From contig JACCRF010000012.1 of NCBI GenBank assembly GCA_013813715.1, positions 1-45,420 of the forward strand: DNA of 45,420 nt. The letters run 5' to 3'. Made by a program: the position numbers and the translations under genes. Below are positions 20,143-45,217 of this stretch, piece after piece. Every line of letters begins with the position of its first letter. Positions within the stretch are counted from its first letter, which is position 1. The notes beneath the pieces are model-generated. The model ran no database searches and was not told the origin of the DNA. It saw nothing but the letters and a program-made list of their open reading frames with translations. Source of the stretch: Gemmatimonadaceae bacterium. GTDB taxonomy: Bacteria > Gemmatimonadota > Gemmatimonadetes > Gemmatimonadales > Gemmatimonadaceae.

Positions 20143-21546
20143 TCACTGCTGCGGCGGACGGGCCGAGTAGTTCTCGAAGCGCGTAAACGTCTTGTTGAAG
20201 TAGAGGTTGACGAGTCCGGTCGGGCCGTTGCGCTGTTTTCCGACGATGATTTCCGCCCGCCCCTCGAGGGAGTTGCCGTCCTTGTCAGTGGGACCATCGT
20301 ACATCTCCTGGCGGTAGATGAACATCACCAGGTCGGCGTCCTGCTCGATTGCGCCCGACTCCCGGAGGTCGGAAAGCTGGGGGCGTTTGTGCTCGGCCGC
20401 TCTCTGCTCGGGAGCACGGGATAGCTGAGACAATGCGACCACGGGTACTCGCAGCTCGCGGGCAAGCGACTTGAGCGACCGCGAGATGTAGCTGATCTCC
20501 TGCTGCCGGCTTTCCGGATTACCCGGCCCCTGCATGAGCTGGAGATAGTCCACCACGACAAGGCCAATGTTGTTGTCCACCTTCAACCGCCTCGCCTTCG
20601 ATCGCATCTCGAGCAGCGTGATGCCAGGCGTGTCGTCGATCCAGATGGGAGCGTGACTCAGAATGCCGGCGGCGCGGCCGAGGCGAACGAACTCGTCGTC
20701 GTGGAGCCTGCCCTTCCGCAGGCGCTGCGCGTCGACTCTGCCTTCGGAGGTCAGGAGCCGCTGCACGAGCTGCTCCTTGCTCATTTCGAGCGAGAAAATC
20801 GCGACTGGCACGTTTCCGTCGAGTGCGGCGTTCTGCGCGATGTTGAGGACGAAAGCCGTCTTTCCCATCGAGGGCCGTGCAGCGATGATGATGAGGTCGG
20901 ACTGCTGGAATCCGGCAGTGATCTCGTCGAGATCCTTGAACCCGCTGGCGACCCCGGTGACGGATTCACCGCCGCGCTGGAGCAGCTCGATCCGCTCCAT
21001 CGTCGGCCAGAGCAGCTCCTTGATTCGCATGAATCCTTCGGCGCCGCGGCTCTGATTTACCTCGAAGATCTTGTGCTCGGCCGCGTCGAGCAGCTCGGCC
21101 GCGGGCGCGGCCGACTCGAACGCCTCGGAAACAATCGCTGTCGAGACCTCGATCAGCCGGCGGCGAAGCGCCTTTTCACGGACGATCCTTGCGTGGTATT
21201 CGACATTCGCCGACGTCGGAACAGCGTCGACGAGAAAAGCTATGTAGTCCTTGCCACCGCTTGCCTGAAGATCGCCCGTCCGCCCCAGCTCTTCAGCGAG
21301 GGTGAGCGGATCAATGACGTCTCCTTTCTCATTGAGCGCGAACATCGCCCGGAAGATCCGGCGGTTCCCCTCGCGGTAGAACATCGTGTCGTCCACATGC
21401 TCGGCGGCACGCAGCACCGCGTCGGCATCCATAAGCATCGCGGACAGCACGGCCTGCTCGGCGTCCTCCGAGTATGGAGGACGCCGCTCCGAATACGGAT
21501 CACGCGACGGCGGCGCTATCGAGAATTCTACGGGCGAGCTGGACAT
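20143..21546 (-). CDS. dnaB: Replicative DNA helicase DnaB
   Basis: DnaB is the hexameric fork helicase. The protein is 467 residues: an N-terminal primase-docking domain (about 25-130), a linker, and a RecA-like motor. Walker A is ARPSMGKTAF, Walker B is LVVVDYLQLM, and the C-terminal arginine/loop motifs appear in SQLSRAPEQR and DLRESGAIEQDAD. The start at 21546 overlaps the end of the uracil-DNA glycosylase gene by 47 bp. The N-terminal domain is closely similar to that of the mobile-element protein at 42671-44125. Confidence 0.96.
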   Translation of the reverse strand: MSSSPVEFSIAPPSRDPYSERRPPYSEDAEQAVLSAMLMDADAVLRAAEHVDDTMFYREGNRRIFRAMFALNEKGDVIDPLTLAEELGRTGDLQASGGKDYIAFLVDAVPTSANVEYHARIVREKALRRRLIEVSTAIVSEAFESAAPAAELLDAAEHKIFEVNQSRGAEGFMRIKELLWPTMERIELLQRGGESVTGVASGFKDLDEITAGFQQSDLIIIAARPSMGKTAFVLNIAQNAALDGNVPVAIFSLEMSKEQLVQRLLTSEGRVDAQRLRKGRLHDDEFVRLGRAAGILSHAPIWIDDTPGITLLEMRSKARRLKVDNNIGLVVVDYLQLMQGPGNPESRQQEISYISRSLKSLARELRVPVVALSQLSRAPEQRAAEHKRPQLSDLRESGAIEQDADLVMFIYRQEMYDGPTDKDGNSLEGRAEIIVGKQRNGPTGLVNLYFNKTFTRFENYSARPPQQ

Positions 21547-39509: not shown

Positions 39510-39880
39510 GCTTTGACGCGGTATGACAGACTACCGAGCTGATACCCCTTCATTCCCTCACTCCGTCGGCAGGACGCGTCATGCACGCGACGATAGCAGA
39601 ACCATGCACTATCCGCGGCATTTCAGACTGAAAGCGACAGTTCTCCCCGCCAGCGCGTGTCGATGGTCGCACTGGGTTCGTGAAAGGCTATTGCCCTAGC
39701 ATAAACCGAGCGCCTGGCCTCGCTGGTTCGCTAACGCTCTTCAGGATCTCAAGGGGATACTGCTGGAGGATCTCCCGGCAGAGCAAGCGGGCACTCGAGG
39801 AGCCGCTGGCATAGACCAAACAGCGATCGAGGCCTTGTTACGGCTATCTTGAATCGTGTAAGGCATTGCCGTGCAACCAG
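39510..39880. other. Gene-free stretch between the kinase promoter and the tRNA-Leu remnant
   Basis: I see no convincing gene, RNA or mobile-element end here. On the plus strand about 50 codons before a TGA near 39852 have no stop, but there is no start or recognisable motif. It is the last host sequence before the element border. Confidence 0.4.
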
Positions 39881-39937
39881 TACCCGGGACGAGACTCGAA
39901 CTCGTAAGGCCCAAAAGCCGGGGGATTTTGAGTCCCT
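39881..39937 (-). other. Element attachment site: displaced 3' half of tRNA-Leu(CAA)
   Basis: On the minus strand the anticodon loop CTCAAAA with its 3' stem strand is followed by a class II variable arm (GGC...GCC). Then come the T arm ACGAG-TTCGAGT-CTCGT and the acceptor strand CCCGGGT plus discriminator A; CCA is not encoded. No matching 5' half (acceptor strand ACCCGGG, D arm) exists upstream. Instead the sequence runs into an integrase gene. This is the standard scar of tRNA-targeted integration: the intact tRNA should be at the other end of the element. Confidence 0.85.
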
Positions 39938-40080: not shown

Positions 40081-41250
40081 CTACTTCGCTATGAAGAGCG
40101 GAGCTAGTTGCTCTTCCACGAGCGCGCGCAGATGCTCAGGCACCATGTGCGTGTAAGCCATAGTCGTCGCGAGATCTGCGTGACCGAGGGCTTCCTTCAC
40201 GTGCACGACGTTCTTGCCCTCAGCGAGCCATGTCGTCACGCGACGGTGACGCAAATCGTGGCGACGGAATCCTGCCGGCACCTTAGCCGTGGCGGCCGCA
40301 TTCTCGAATGAACGCCGGATGGAGCGAATTTGTTGCCCGGCGATCGCGCTCCTGGTGGTGATCACGTGGTGGAATACGAAAGGAGAGCGGCCGGTATCAT
40401 AGACCGCCATCCGGAACGTTGCTGCGTGCTCCTGTAGGGCTGCCCTGAGCCGTGACGTCAGCGGAATGAACCGAGACTTACCGCTCTTCGTCCTTCGCCC
40501 TGGCGCGCTCTTGACGTGCAGGAACCCCGTCGCGAGGTCCACATCCTCCCATCGCAGCTGCAGCGCCTCGCTATCAGCCCGAACGCCCGTCTCTGCCAGC
40601 AGCAGGATGTACAGACTGAGCATCGGGTTGGCCTCTGCCGCTTTCAGGAGCGCTTCCAGCTCGCCGCTCGAGAGAATAGGGGTGTCGCGCTTGTCCGCCT
40701 TCGGCGCCGTCACCCGCGCACACGGGTTGGCCTCGAGGAAGTCCTTGTCAACAGCGTAGTTGAAGAGCCGGTGCAGGACGCGCCGATCGCGCGCAACGGT
40801 GTGCGCGCTGACGCCGGCCGCGAGCGCGTCCGTTCCCGCGGTGAGACCGCCGAAGCGGATCGATCGTCGCCACTGAATGAAAGTCTTCACGACCCCGCGC
40901 TGAATGTCGCGCACGAAGGGATCGCCGAGCTTGTCGACGAAGAACACCTTGAACGCCCCGAGGCTGCTCCGGTAGGATTGCACGGCGCCAGCTGAGAGTC
41001 CGGGGAGCTCGTATGTCTTGAAATCTTCGATCAGGGCGGAAAAACGAATCGGAGCCGGCAAGCCGGCCTCGGCACGACCATGATCACGCGACAACTCTGC
41101 GTGCTTTACTGTCGCGAAGTTCTGCGCTTCGACCTTCGTGCCGGGCACCGTGAAGGAGTGATAAGTACCCCCGACGCAGAGGCGAACGCGCCAGGTAGCT
41201 GCTCGCTTCGTGATGCTGCCTGGGTAAGACTTCGTTCTCTTCCGTGGCAT
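40081..41250 (-). CDS. int: Tyrosine recombinase/integrase
   Basis: This phage-type integrase catalyses site-specific insertion and excision of the element. The protein is 389 residues from the ATG at 41250. It has an N-terminal arm-binding region, a SAM-like core-binding domain (about 70-170) and the catalytic domain. The active-site residues are R224 (TGVRADSEAL), K255 or K258 in the beta-hairpin, H331 and R334 (HDLRH), H357 (LGHAD) and the nucleophile Y366 (AYTHM). It lies next to the tRNA-Leu remnant and starts two bases after the repressor-like gene stops, so both share one message. Confidence 0.95.
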   Translation of the reverse strand: MPRKRTKSYPGSITKRAATWRVRLCVGGTYHSFTVPGTKVEAQNFATVKHAELSRDHGRAEAGLPAPIRFSALIEDFKTYELPGLSAGAVQSYRSSLGAFKVFFVDKLGDPFVRDIQRGVVKTFIQWRRSIRFGGLTAGTDALAAGVSAHTVARDRRVLHRLFNYAVDKDFLEANPCARVTAPKADKRDTPILSSGELEALLKAAEANPMLSLYILLLAETGVRADSEALQLRWEDVDLATGFLHVKSAPGRRTKSGKSRFIPLTSRLRAALQEHAATFRMAVYDTGRSPFVFHHVITTRSAIAGQQIRSIRRSFENAAATAKVPAGFRRHDLRHRRVTTWLAEGKNVVHVKEALGHADLATTMAYTHMVPEHLRALVEEQLAPLFIAK

Positions 41251-41252
41251 AG

Positions 41253-42065
41253 TCACATCCCTTTTCGTGAACGTGGAGTGTTGCTTCGTTGCTTCGAGCC
41301 CTTCGGACGTGCCCTGCTGCGCCTGGGTATGCATTCGACCATCTCCTGCCCGGCGCCGAGAGTCATGTCGGGCTGTTGCCTGCGTTGCTCCGCTTCGATC
41401 GCGAGAAGCACCGGGACCATCGCCGTTATGTAGTCGCCGAGCGTGTCGCCCTCCATCCGGTTTGGATCTACACGAAACACGTCGAGAGGACCCTTTAGAG
41501 CCGCGCCAATATCACGCTCGATGTGCGGATCGATATACGAGCTTCCTGGAAGGTCTCCGCGTGGGTCACGCATCCCAAGCAGGTCTCGAACGTTATAAGT
41601 ACCGCCGAGCACGAGGCGGAGTCGTACCTCGCCAAGAGGTGCGACCCAGTGCGGGATGAGCGATTCCGGTGAACGCCACCATTGGACGTCTTCGGTGGAT
41701 TGCGGTACCCGCATGAACTGGAAAATGGTGTGTAACAGGCGCGCGGCACTTTCACGCTTCCAGTCTGCCCCTCGAGGGGCCGCGCCGGACGAAACCGCCG
41801 CTGCTTCGGCATGTGCGGGGGTCGGATGCCCGATCTCGAACGCCAGCCATTCAGGATTCAACTCGAGAACCTGAGCGGCCGCAGACGTGAATTCTGAGGG
41901 GGGTGTAGCGCCGGCCAGGTAGCGATGGATCATGGCGCGCGTGCTTCCCTTGGGCCGCGGCCGGCGCTTTAACATTTCTGCGGCAAACGAACGAATGCTC
42001 ATCGTTTTGTCCGGCCCGTCGCCCACATACATGCCGAGCCGCTCGCCGATCGTCCTGTCCACCAT
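41253..42065 (-). CDS. Repressor-like helix-turn-helix protein of the element
   Basis: The protein is 270 residues. Its first 75 residues resemble a Cro/CI-type helix-turn-helix (SIRSFAAEMLKR... STRAMIHRYLAGATPPSEFTSAAAQVLELNPEWLAFE). No LexA-type peptidase motif is evident in the rest. The C-terminus is basic. It is read divergently from the element's replication genes, has GGAGG 5 bp before the ATG, and its promoter overlaps two GTATAC boxes, so a lysogeny or excision switch is a reasonable guess. The assignment rests on pattern and position. Confidence 0.65.
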   Translation of the reverse strand: MVDRTIGERLGMYVGDGPDKTMSIRSFAAEMLKRRPRPKGSTRAMIHRYLAGATPPSEFTSAAAQVLELNPEWLAFEIGHPTPAHAEAAAVSSGAAPRGADWKRESAARLLHTIFQFMRVPQSTEDVQWWRSPESLIPHWVAPLGEVRLRLVLGGTYNVRDLLGMRDPRGDLPGSSYIDPHIERDIGAALKGPLDVFRVDPNRMEGDTLGDYITAMVPVLLAIEAEQRRQQPDMTLGAGQEMVECIPRRSRARPKGSKQRSNTPRSRKGM

Positions 42066-42475: not shown

Positions 42476-42674
42476 CAACAGCAAGCATCTCCAGACCGCC
42501 GAAGAGCAACGACGTGACCGGGAGATTGATTCGCTTGTCACGCCCCTGGTGCTGGATTTTTGTCGGCGTAGGCCAGGGAAAGCGCTCGCGGTGCTCCGAT
42601 CGCTGAAAGCGCTTGCAGCCGCGAGATCCGCCCTCCTCAGCCGGCGACGATGCGCGCAGCCACGCTCCGCGTGA
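42444..42674 (+). CDS. Small hypothetical protein upstream of the replication gene
   Basis: There are 76 codons, starting inside the end of the previous gene and ending in a TGA that overlaps a GTG start of the replication protein (GTGA). A central helical part (IDSLVTPLVLDFCRRRPG to KALAVLRSLKALAAARS) looks protein-like. No family is recognised. The chained overlaps are the best evidence that it is translated. Confidence 0.45.
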   Translation: MTRYSSRRSTSNSKHLQTAEEQRRDREIDSLVTPLVLDFCRRRPGKALAVLRSLKALAAARSALLSRRRCAQPRSA

Positions 42675-44125
42675 CGAGTCTCGAGCTGCCGCGGGACCGG
42701 ACTCGGCGCAAATTGGCTGCGTCAGCGGATGGCGTTGCGGACTACGCGCCGATCCACTCCGACGATGCTGAGCAGGCGGTGCTTTGCGCTGTGCTGATGG
42801 ATGACTCTGCAATGGTGGAAGCGTTCGAGATCCTCGATGACTCCATGTTTTTCCGCGAGGCAAACCGGAAGGTTTTCCGTGCGATGCTGGCTCTCAACGC
42901 GCGCGGCGACGCGATCGATCCGCTAACGCTGACTGAAGAGCTGGCCCGACACGGCGAGCTCGAGGCGGTCGGCGGCAAGGATTACATCTGCTCGTGGAGC
43001 GACGCGGTCCCGTCAGCTGCAAACGTCGAGTATCACGCCAAGATCGTCCGCGAAAAAGCGCAGCGCCAGCGCCTCCGTCACCTTGGTGAGCAGCTCGTCC
43101 GCGAGAGCGGTGAGGCGATTTCCCCCGGAGACGCGCTCTCAGCTTATCGCGAGGTGTTCGCCTCCCTGAGTTTCGACGCGCGGGTGACGGATAACTCTTC
43201 CGTCTTTCTTTCCCTTGCGACTCTCCTGAATCGTCCCGAGCTCCTGGTTCCGCCCTCGCCGGTCGTTCCGAGACTCGGCTACAGAGGGCGCGCGACCATC
43301 ATTGCGGCACCCGACAAATCCGGAAAGTCCACAATGCTCGCGACGGCTGCAGCTGAAATATCGAAGCGCGGCCATTTCCTGGGCGCGCCGGTTGGAGCGC
43401 CGACGCGGCGAGTGATATGGGGCGGGCTTGAGGAGGCGCTCGGAGATGCGGTGCGACGGTTTTATGAATTCGGCGCCGTCGCGGACAATATCCACCTTGT
43501 CGTTCTCAAGCGCCCGACCCTCCTCGAGCACATCCGAGCAAAGCAAATCGAGGCGCCTGTCGACCTCGTTATCGTGGACTCCCTCACCGAATACGCGCGA
43601 GTCCTCGGGAAGGTACCGGACGACAGTGACACGAGCGGATGGTCCGCCGTCGTGCGGCCGTTGATCGAGCTGACCAGAGAGTTTCCGGACCTGAGCTTGA
43701 TCGTCGCGCACCACCCGCGGAGAAGTGACGGCGAATACCGCGGGGCAACGGAAATAGCGGCCGCCTTCGATTGCCTCCTCGAAATGCGCAAACCGAAGGA
43801 AGGCGAAGACCCGACGATCCGTCACATAACCGGAAGGGCTCGCTGGCCGGTCGCCGCATTCGACGTCCGACTCCGAGACGGCCGGTACGAGCTCGCCGGC
43901 GGGGGCGAACTGTCACTCGACGCGCGGATCCTCATTCAGATCGAACAACATCGCGGGATTTCCCTCGCTGAACTAAGACGCCTTGTCGGCGGTCGCGGAA
44001 CCGCGGTCGATGACGCTCTCGCCGGCCTCGTTCGTCGCGGCGCCGTGCTCGATCTCGGAGTCGGCGGGAAGCACGCCTACCATCCGGCGGGGACAGAACC
44101 GCCCACACTCGGGCTCCTCCCGTGA
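42671..44125 (+). CDS. Chimeric replication protein: DnaB N-terminal domain fused to a RepA-like ATPase
   Basis: The protein is 484 residues from the GTG at 42671 (491 from an ATG at 42650). Residues about 30-140 are a DnaB N-terminal domain, about two-thirds identical by eye to the host DnaB in this window, sharing DDxMFxREANR, GDxIDPLTL and ANVEYHAxIVREKA. A linker leads to a RecA-fold motor of RepA/AAA_25 type with Walker A APDKSGKST (about 212-221), Walker B VDLVIVDS (about 297-304) and a sensor LIVAHHPRR. The C-terminus looks like a winged helix (ISLAELRRLVGGRGTAVDDAL). The motor is not DnaB-like. It is probably the element's replication helicase or initiator. The segment YICSWSDAVP differs locally from the conserved YIAFLVDAVP. 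Confidence 0.85.
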   Translation: MTSLELPRDRTRRKLAASADGVADYAPIHSDDAEQAVLCAVLMDDSAMVEAFEILDDSMFFREANRKVFRAMLALNARGDAIDPLTLTEELARHGELEAVGGKDYICSWSDAVPSAANVEYHAKIVREKAQRQRLRHLGEQLVRESGEAISPGDALSAYREVFASLSFDARVTDNSSVFLSLATLLNRPELLVPPSPVVPRLGYRGRATIIAAPDKSGKSTMLATAAAEISKRGHFLGAPVGAPTRRVIWGGLEEALGDAVRRFYEFGAVADNIHLVVLKRPTLLEHIRAKQIEAPVDLVIVDSLTEYARVLGKVPDDSDTSGWSAVVRPLIELTREFPDLSLIVAHHPRRSDGEYRGATEIAAAFDCLLEMRKPKEGEDPTIRHITGRARWPVAAFDVRLRDGRYELAGGGELSLDARILIQIEQHRGISLAELRRLVGGRGTAVDDALAGLVRRGAVLDLGVGGKHAYHPAGTEPPTLGLLP

Positions 44126-44534: not shown

Positions 44535-44954
44535 ATGACCGTCGCTGATCGTCTTCGCGCGATCGTCGGATCGCTCCCGGAAGGCGCCGCCGTCACCCTT
44601 CCCGGCGACGCTCTGCGCGCGTGGCTCGAGGCCGAGTCCGTCGCGCCGCCGGCCCCGGCTGTGATTGAGGCCGAGCCTTCGACTTGGCGCGAGCGGCTGT
44701 GGACGTGTCCTCCCGAGACCCGCCTCGGTGTGCACGAGCTGGCAGAGGCGCTCGACCGATCAGCCGATTTCGTGTATCGCGCCGTCGACGCGAAGTGGAG
44801 CGCGAAGCGCGGCCGGGATCCACTGCCCTGCTCGCGGCTCGACGGCGTGCTTGTCTTCACTGCCGGCGCAATCCGGCGTTGGCTCGAGGCTTCCGCCGTG
44901 ATCGTCAATCCTGAACCGCGTCACGTGCAGCTGCACACAAGGATTCGCGCATGA
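44535..44954 (+). CDS. Helix-turn-helix (excisionase/MerR-like) protein
   Basis: The protein is 139 residues. The N-terminal half is Ala/Glu-rich. The C-terminal half reads LGVHELAEALDRSADFVYRAVDAKW... PCSRLDGVLVFTAGAIRRWLEAS, the pattern of the short winged helix of excisionase and terminase-small-type DNA-binding domains. GGGGG precedes the ATG. Its stop overlaps the next gene as ATGA. Excisionase, replication accessory factor or regulator are all possible. Confidence 0.65.
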   Translation: MTVADRLRAIVGSLPEGAAVTLPGDALRAWLEAESVAPPAPAVIEAEPSTWRERLWTCPPETRLGVHELAEALDRSADFVYRAVDAKWSAKRGRDPLPCSRLDGVLVFTAGAIRRWLEASAVIVNPEPRHVQLHTRIRA

Positions 44955-45217
44955 CGGCCGACTTCGAACGGCTGGCCCGCGCGATACACCTTGACGTTGA
45001 GACAATCGCCAACGGAGACGGCTGGATCGTCACTGGTGGCAGCGGTTCGCATCTCGTGAGCGGGTCCGCCTGCGACTGTATCGATTTCGGCGTGCGAGGT
45101 ACCCCGTGTAAGCACGTGCTCGCGGTGGCGCTTCGACGCGGAGATCCCGACGTCCTCGAGACTCTTCGCCTCTTAGTGCCGCTCCCAAGGCGACGGCGCA
45201 GCCCGAGCGACGCATGA
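44951..45217 (+). CDS. SWIM zinc-finger protein
   Basis: The protein is 88 residues. The SWIM signature CxC-xn-CxH is complete: CDCIDFGVRGTPCKHVLAVALRRGD in the middle of the protein (positions about 41-65). SWIM domains bind DNA or proteins and occur as small stand-alone proteins in phages and mobile elements. It is coupled to both neighbours by ATGA overlaps. Confidence 0.8.
   Translation: MTADFERLARAIHLDVETIANGDGWIVTGGSGSHLVSGSACDCIDFGVRGTPCKHVLAVALRRGDPDVLETLRLLVPLPRRRRSPSDA

Follow-up and report, generated by a model that had tools for sequence, protein, structure and literature searches.

The 45,420-nucleotide window analyzed here, which is the whole of contig C51 of a Gemmatimonadaceae genome, encodes toward its right end a protein that joins a DnaB-type N-terminal domain to a RecA-fold motor of the RepA/AAA_25 type. 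The explanation that we favor, and consider probable, is that this fusion serves an integrated phage-like element as its replicative helicase, combining a RepA-type motor with a host-derived DnaB N-domain that recruits the host primase DnaG. The fusion can be regarded as a natural domain-swap experiment on the replisome: a DnaB N-domain appears to have been cut at the border of hairpin and linker and set on an unrelated RecA-fold motor, by which the primase-facing half is parted from the loader-facing half. If the fusion does function with host DnaG, the interface that DnaB presents to primase can be transferred from one helicase lineage to another, and the protein makes it possible to test directly what an element has to retain of DnaB in order to use the host primase.

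In the mechanism that we propose, the C-terminal two thirds would be a hexameric-helicase motor of the RepA type followed by a winged-helix tail, from a family that occurs in mobile elements of the phylum, and the N-terminal third would be a complete DnaB N-domain taken from a Gemmatimonadaceae host dnaB and cut before the linker helix. The motor would form a ring and unwind the DNA of the element, the DnaB N-domains would form a collar and bring in host DnaG for priming, and loading would depend on the element's own origin recognition rather than on the host DciA/LH-DH route.

Domain architecture and the motor half

The fusion and its parts are listed in Table 1; an alternative ATG start at 42650 would give an ORF of 491 aa (42650-44125). 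A Pfam search, one of the checks proposed in the first-pass annotation of this DNA (made from the sequence alone), placed DnaB_N (PF00772) in front, at residues 28-128 (E 1.1e-28), and AAA_25 (PF13481) behind it, at residues 194-352 (E 3.2e-14), with DnaB_C (PF03796) unmatched in the fusion but matched by the host DnaB at 6.5e-111. What the fusion has in common with bacterial DnaB is the N-domain with its hairpin, where BLASTP aligned fusion residues 18-156 with residues 14-152 of the host DnaB (79/139 identical, 57%, E 4e-47) and gave no significant alignment in the rest of the fusion. It differs from bacterial DnaB in that the linker helix and DnaB_C are missing and a RepA-type motor is present instead. 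The best NCBIfam DnaB score was 102 bits against a cut-off of 525, with the match confined to N-terminal residues, and together with the missing PF03796 this ruled out a full DnaB replicative helicase (equivalog). The first-pass annotation had described about 110 residues as about two-thirds identical to the host DnaB. The similarity stands, but the figure was slightly high: the 121-residue core of the N-domain is 60% identical to the DnaB of its own host and at best 63% identical, to the DnaB of a congener.

Table 1. Coordinates of the fusion protein, its parts, the neighboring genes and the related element (positions in the window unless another contig is named)
Feature	Position	Strand	Remarks
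Chromosomal DnaB, comparison protein for the fusion N-domain	20143..21546	-	
Attachment-site repeat, 63 bp	39874..39936	-	identical to 3' part of intact tRNA-Leu(CAA), C77 253055-253117
Tyrosine integrase of the element	40081..41334	-	PF00589 E 3.3e-22; phrog_1 integrase E 4.2e-57
Putative repressor-like regulator	41253..42065	-	weak phrog_8/phrog_4 matches, E 0.02-0.04
DnaB_N + AAA_25 (RepA-type) fusion protein	42671..44125	+	484 aa from GTG 42671
Globular part of DnaB-type N-terminal domain, residues 30-112	42758..43006	+	AlphaFold2 pLDDT about 87-92 over most
Helical hairpin of DnaB N-domain, residues 119-170 (helices 119-148, 152-170)	43025..43180	+	AlphaFold2 model
Junction, residues 171-181, DnaB linker helix absent	43181..43213	+	model; host FMRIKELLWPTMERIELLQ without counterpart
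RepA/AAA_25 RecA-fold motor, residues 182-412	43214..43906	+	Pfam, profiles, model
C-terminal winged-helix-like domain, residues 416-472	43916..44086	+	model; MarR-like/HTH matches
Small HTH_17-like protein	44535..44954	+	sub-threshold PF12728, E 0.0058
Small SWIM zinc-finger protein, cut end of element	44951..45217	+	PF04434 E 1.9e-7
G016 element	L048:9954 to L049:7850 = G016:C8 about 81954-97850		

Structure prediction of the fusion alone, another check suggested by the first-pass annotation, agreed with this division. The AlphaFold2 model, built on a 17-sequence alignment (mean pLDDT 79.6), has a DnaB-type N-domain with its hairpin and a RecA-fold motor; the relative placement of the two halves is not trustworthy at the pTM of 0.56, and the junction was modelled at low confidence over about residues 168-181. 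The M. tuberculosis DnaB N-domain (2r5u) superposes on residues 24-169 of the model (Z 21.0, rmsd 2.4, 143 residues). In relatives from the motor family, MarR-like/HTH matches fall where the fusion has its winged-helix-like tail.

The only other full-length relative of the window fusion was found in G016, a genome from a second species of the same genus. This copy has the same DnaB_N+AAA_25 architecture at 63% identity in an independent genome, and an assembly chimera is therefore unlikely. Between the two copies, the N part gave dN 0.39 and dS 1.24 and the motor dN 0.24 and dS 2.2, that is, dN/dS of about 0.3 and about 0.1, respectively, which are rough ratios because dS is saturated. Purifying selection acts on both halves of the fusion.

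RSF1010 RepA is a single-domain ring with neither a DnaB N-domain nor a winged-helix tail, both of which the fusion has, and direct sequence similarity between the two is weak. The motor fold and the catalytic residues of the RepA family are nonetheless those of the fusion. A profile of nine related Gemmatimonadota motors found RSF1010 RepA (1g8y) as its best solved relative and top PDB match (E 2.2e-12), with RadA ranking behind it. The four catalytic residues of this family of hexameric helicases, which includes Lactococcus phage F13 GP46 (PMC8965321), occur in the fusion motor as Walker A K219, motif 1a E255, Walker B D303 and motif 3 H348. All four are invariant across the nine motors; R263 is invariant as well and, with a GRAR motif, provides candidate arginine-finger residues.

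Local profiles separated the two helicase types. The fusion scored 380.9 bits on the RepA/AAA_25 profile, whose training sequences include the fusion itself, and -1.6 on the DnaB CTD profile, compared to 5.6 and 466.1 bits, respectively, for the host DnaB. These scores and the Pfam match bear out the earlier assignment of the ATPase half to the RepA/AAA_25 type. The alternative named for this half at the outset, a normal DnaB C-terminal domain, was rejected by the sequence profiles and the absence of PF03796. Based on its sequence, the fusion motor is a member of the RepA/AAA_25-type lineage, and a helicase role for the protein is likely.

Other comparisons were less discriminating. In a structure search with the full model, DnaB chains ranked amid other RecA-fold proteins (Z 20-22 for RadA, KaiC, RAD51 and RepA), and fold comparison alone cannot assign the motor, since a Z of about 20 is common to all RecA-fold proteins. 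The motor-only structure predicted from a single sequence reached a pLDDT of 37.7. The motor tree left deep joins undecided, with a p-AU of 0.152 for the window and G016 motors joined with DnaB CTDs. Direct searches with the motor in IMG/VR, genome_contigs, phages and plasmids returned nothing (no match at E 0.01 for the window motor in phages and plasmids), and pattern scans reach close relatives only.

Ancestry of the N-domain and distribution of the architecture

The N-domain was placed with host sequences, as the first-pass annotation had supposed, and not with phage helicases, the grouping that it had named as speaking against its reading. In an 80-row tree, the window and G016 N-domains are both nested in the Gemmatimonadota DnaB clade, with viral DnaBs outside; 99/99 branches separate this clade from nearly all viral rows, and a family-level clade is supported at 98/92. 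Both copies are 60-69% identical to congeneric DnaBs and at most 47% identical to viral rows. Grouping both N-domains with the closest viral row was weakly rejected (p-AU 0.037, reduced set). One ordinary DnaB on a viral contig (L063, IMGVR_UViG_3300037483_000378), possibly from a phage of Gemmatimonadota, has an N-domain that is 46-47% identical to those of the fusions and groups next to Gemmatimonadota DnaBs.

DnaB_N followed by AAA_25, again without DnaB_C, also occurs in helicases of Gordonia phage Dardanus (gp48), Arthrobacter phage Hum25 (gp58), Vibrio phage 1.210.O (NVP1210O_68) and Streptomyces phage mu1/6 (gp21), which are annotated as DnaB-like or DNA helicase; further fusions were found in a Gemmatimonadota protein (L045) and an IMG/VR protein (L078). 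In Dardanus and Hum25, the gene adjoins initiator and SSB genes. No paper on DnaB_N+AAA_25 fusions was found in the openly accessible literature. The occurrence of the architecture in these phages and on an IMG/VR contig would suit an ordinary phage helicase that owes its N-domain to a phage ancestor and captured nothing from a host, an explanation to which we give very little credence. The N-domains of the phage proteins are deep and phage-like, whereas those of the window and G016 copies are nested in the DnaBs of the host phylum, with identities of about 28% to the IMG/VR fusion and 32% to the further fusion from Gemmatimonadota. Holding all eight fusion N-domains as one clade was rejected (p-AU 0.00065), which suggests that the two domains were combined on more than one occasion; this test and the placement in the 80-row tree reject a phage-helicase origin of the N-domain. 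The motors of the phage proteins are likewise very divergent from the window motor. With all fused motors held as one clade, a single motor origin was not rejected (p-AU 0.164), and it is therefore possible that host DnaB sequence later displaced the original N-domain of an old phage fusion. The design is thus already present in tailed phages, and what is new is a host-derived N-domain in a satellite-like element that appears to be a separate and recent capture of a host domain.

The number of captures is less clear. The two N-domains are less alike (55% identical) than either is to host DnaBs, and the motors are 66% identical. Relaxed constraint or fast change after one capture and two separate captures both fit these values, and the difference could reflect repeated capture from successive hosts. 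The corresponding tree tests gave a p-AU of 0.318 for one clade of both copies, p 0.492 for the window copy with its own host and p 0.138 for the G016 copy with its own host.

Motors of this subfamily are present in 2 of 19 genomes of the genus. Across the phylum sample, a recognizable motor relative was found in 14 of 395 genomes, all others being about 24-36% identical. These related Gemmatimonadota motors are mostly stand-alone or fused to primase-type domains: the G403 motor to a primase-like Toprim part in which a zinc finger matches below threshold, the L037 relative to a part with a weak PriCT_2 match, and the L039 relative to the helicase-binding domain (HBD) of NrS-1 polymerase. As related motors are fused to primase-type domains, the N-terminal slot seems to supply priming. 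The 47.9 kb contig G403:C538 (L099, L100) is probably circular since its AAA_25 gene runs across the contig ends. Among the host dnaB genes collected, that of G159 (L120) is interrupted by an intein (Intein_splicing and LAGLIDADG_3 matches), and unusually long dnaB frames occur in several other Gemmatimonadota (G023, G032, G080).

Primase contact and loader interface

DnaB N-domains dimerize, and the host genome encodes both DnaG, which matches the DnaB_bind domain, and the loader DciA. The helicase-binding domain of primases resembles the DnaB N-domain, with which a weak match of the C-terminal part of the host DnaG (L121:1141-2961) to DnaB_N (PF00772, E 0.003) agrees. In BstDnaB, the contact with DnaG is reported to be founded on I119 and I125, two residues of the long hairpin helix (PMC2761005). 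Mapped via 2r6a, these residues correspond to I132/I138 in the host DnaB, R136/L142 in the window fusion, and I and L in the G016 copy. The surrounding RRLIE segment, nearly invariant in 55 host DnaBs, reads QRLRH in the window fusion and REAIR in G016. Of 33 N-domain columns that are at least 97% conserved across the 55 host DnaBs, 26 are kept in the window fusion and 25 in the G016 copy. The lost positions cluster at residues 133-137, and the first hairpin helix, which is the DnaG-contact helix in BstDnaB, is the most altered part of the N-domain.

Docking of DnaG on the fusion N-domain is plausible but is made less likely by these changes. An alternative that we regard as unlikely is that the N-domain now serves only oligomerization or architecture, as a ring collar, and no longer recruits DnaG. 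The arginine at the I119 position of the window fusion, the loss of RRLIE in both copies and the higher dN of the N part than of the motor are in line with such a role, but most of the nearly invariant host positions are retained, and stand-alone members of the same motor family manage without such a collar. It is quite unlikely that the target of the captured N-domain is host DnaB and not DnaG, with mixed N-domain pairs or competition for partners diverting or poisoning host replication to the benefit of the element. An N-domain that is still host-like and has a complete hairpin in the model would be compatible with this, as would the concentration of changes in the DnaG-contact helix rather than in the globular part. 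A pure decoy, however, needs no motor, and that of the fusion is complete and strongly conserved (dN 0.24, dS over 2); in addition, the same architecture stands beside initiator and SSB genes in phages, as expected of a replication helicase.

Despite the changed contact helix, the best interpretation is that the fusion N-domain would recruit the host primase, given that primase-type domains fill this slot in relatives and that no primase was detected in the G016 element. More tentatively, the element may recently have swapped its primase-providing module for the DnaB N-domain of its own host, such that the host primase would be driven by the RepA-type motor of the element, bypassing DciA.

The claim that the loader interface had been borrowed as well did not hold. 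In DnaB, the LH-DH module is where DciA, DnaC and lambda P bind (PMC9912922). This module is absent from the fusion, in which the N-domain ends after the hairpin and before the linker helix, and in which the docking helix is lost together with the rest of the DnaB CTD. Host DciA should therefore not recognize the fusion in the usual way.

The integrated elements

Duplication of the 3' part of a tRNA gene beside an integrase is a standard signature of integration into that gene. The 63-bp repeat beside the window integrase duplicates tRNA-Leu(CAA), the intact copy of which lies on contig C77, 1.3 kb from the end of that contig, and this supports the mobile element proposed in the first-pass annotation. 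The element extends past the right end of the contig and is hence cut, so a primase may lie elsewhere in it. Downstream of the G016 fusion is a counterpart of the HTH_17-like protein (sub-threshold PF12728, E 0.014). A second integrated element in the genome of the window, near tRNA-Arg (L051, G000:C131, about 2.1-8.8 kb), encodes an integrase, a small HTH-type ORF, a stand-alone AAA_25 motor and a small terminase.

The element in G016 spans about 15.9 kb between 51-bp repeats, one of which lies in tRNA-Ser(GGA) and covers the 3' part of the tRNA. It encodes an integrase, a regulator, the fusion, TerS (PF05119), a prohead (head maturation) protease (PF04586), a tape measure protein, a DUF5131 protein and a TcmP-like protein. 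No primase match was found among its ORFs, and annotation detected no portal, capsid or large terminase. PICI-like phage satellites carry an integrase, a helicase and a small terminase. The G016 element resembles them in size (10-20 kb), in its tRNA integration and in having TerS with a head protease; it is unlike them in having a tape-measure gene and no known helper phage, and it could be a decayed prophage. The most fitting description is that of a satellite-like element or a decayed prophage, and it may be a phage satellite of Gemmatimonadota. Immediately to its right (L049:7950-11740) is a tandem or remnant element with a second integrase and regulator, in which the integrase start recurs as short direct repeats near L049 11307-11423.
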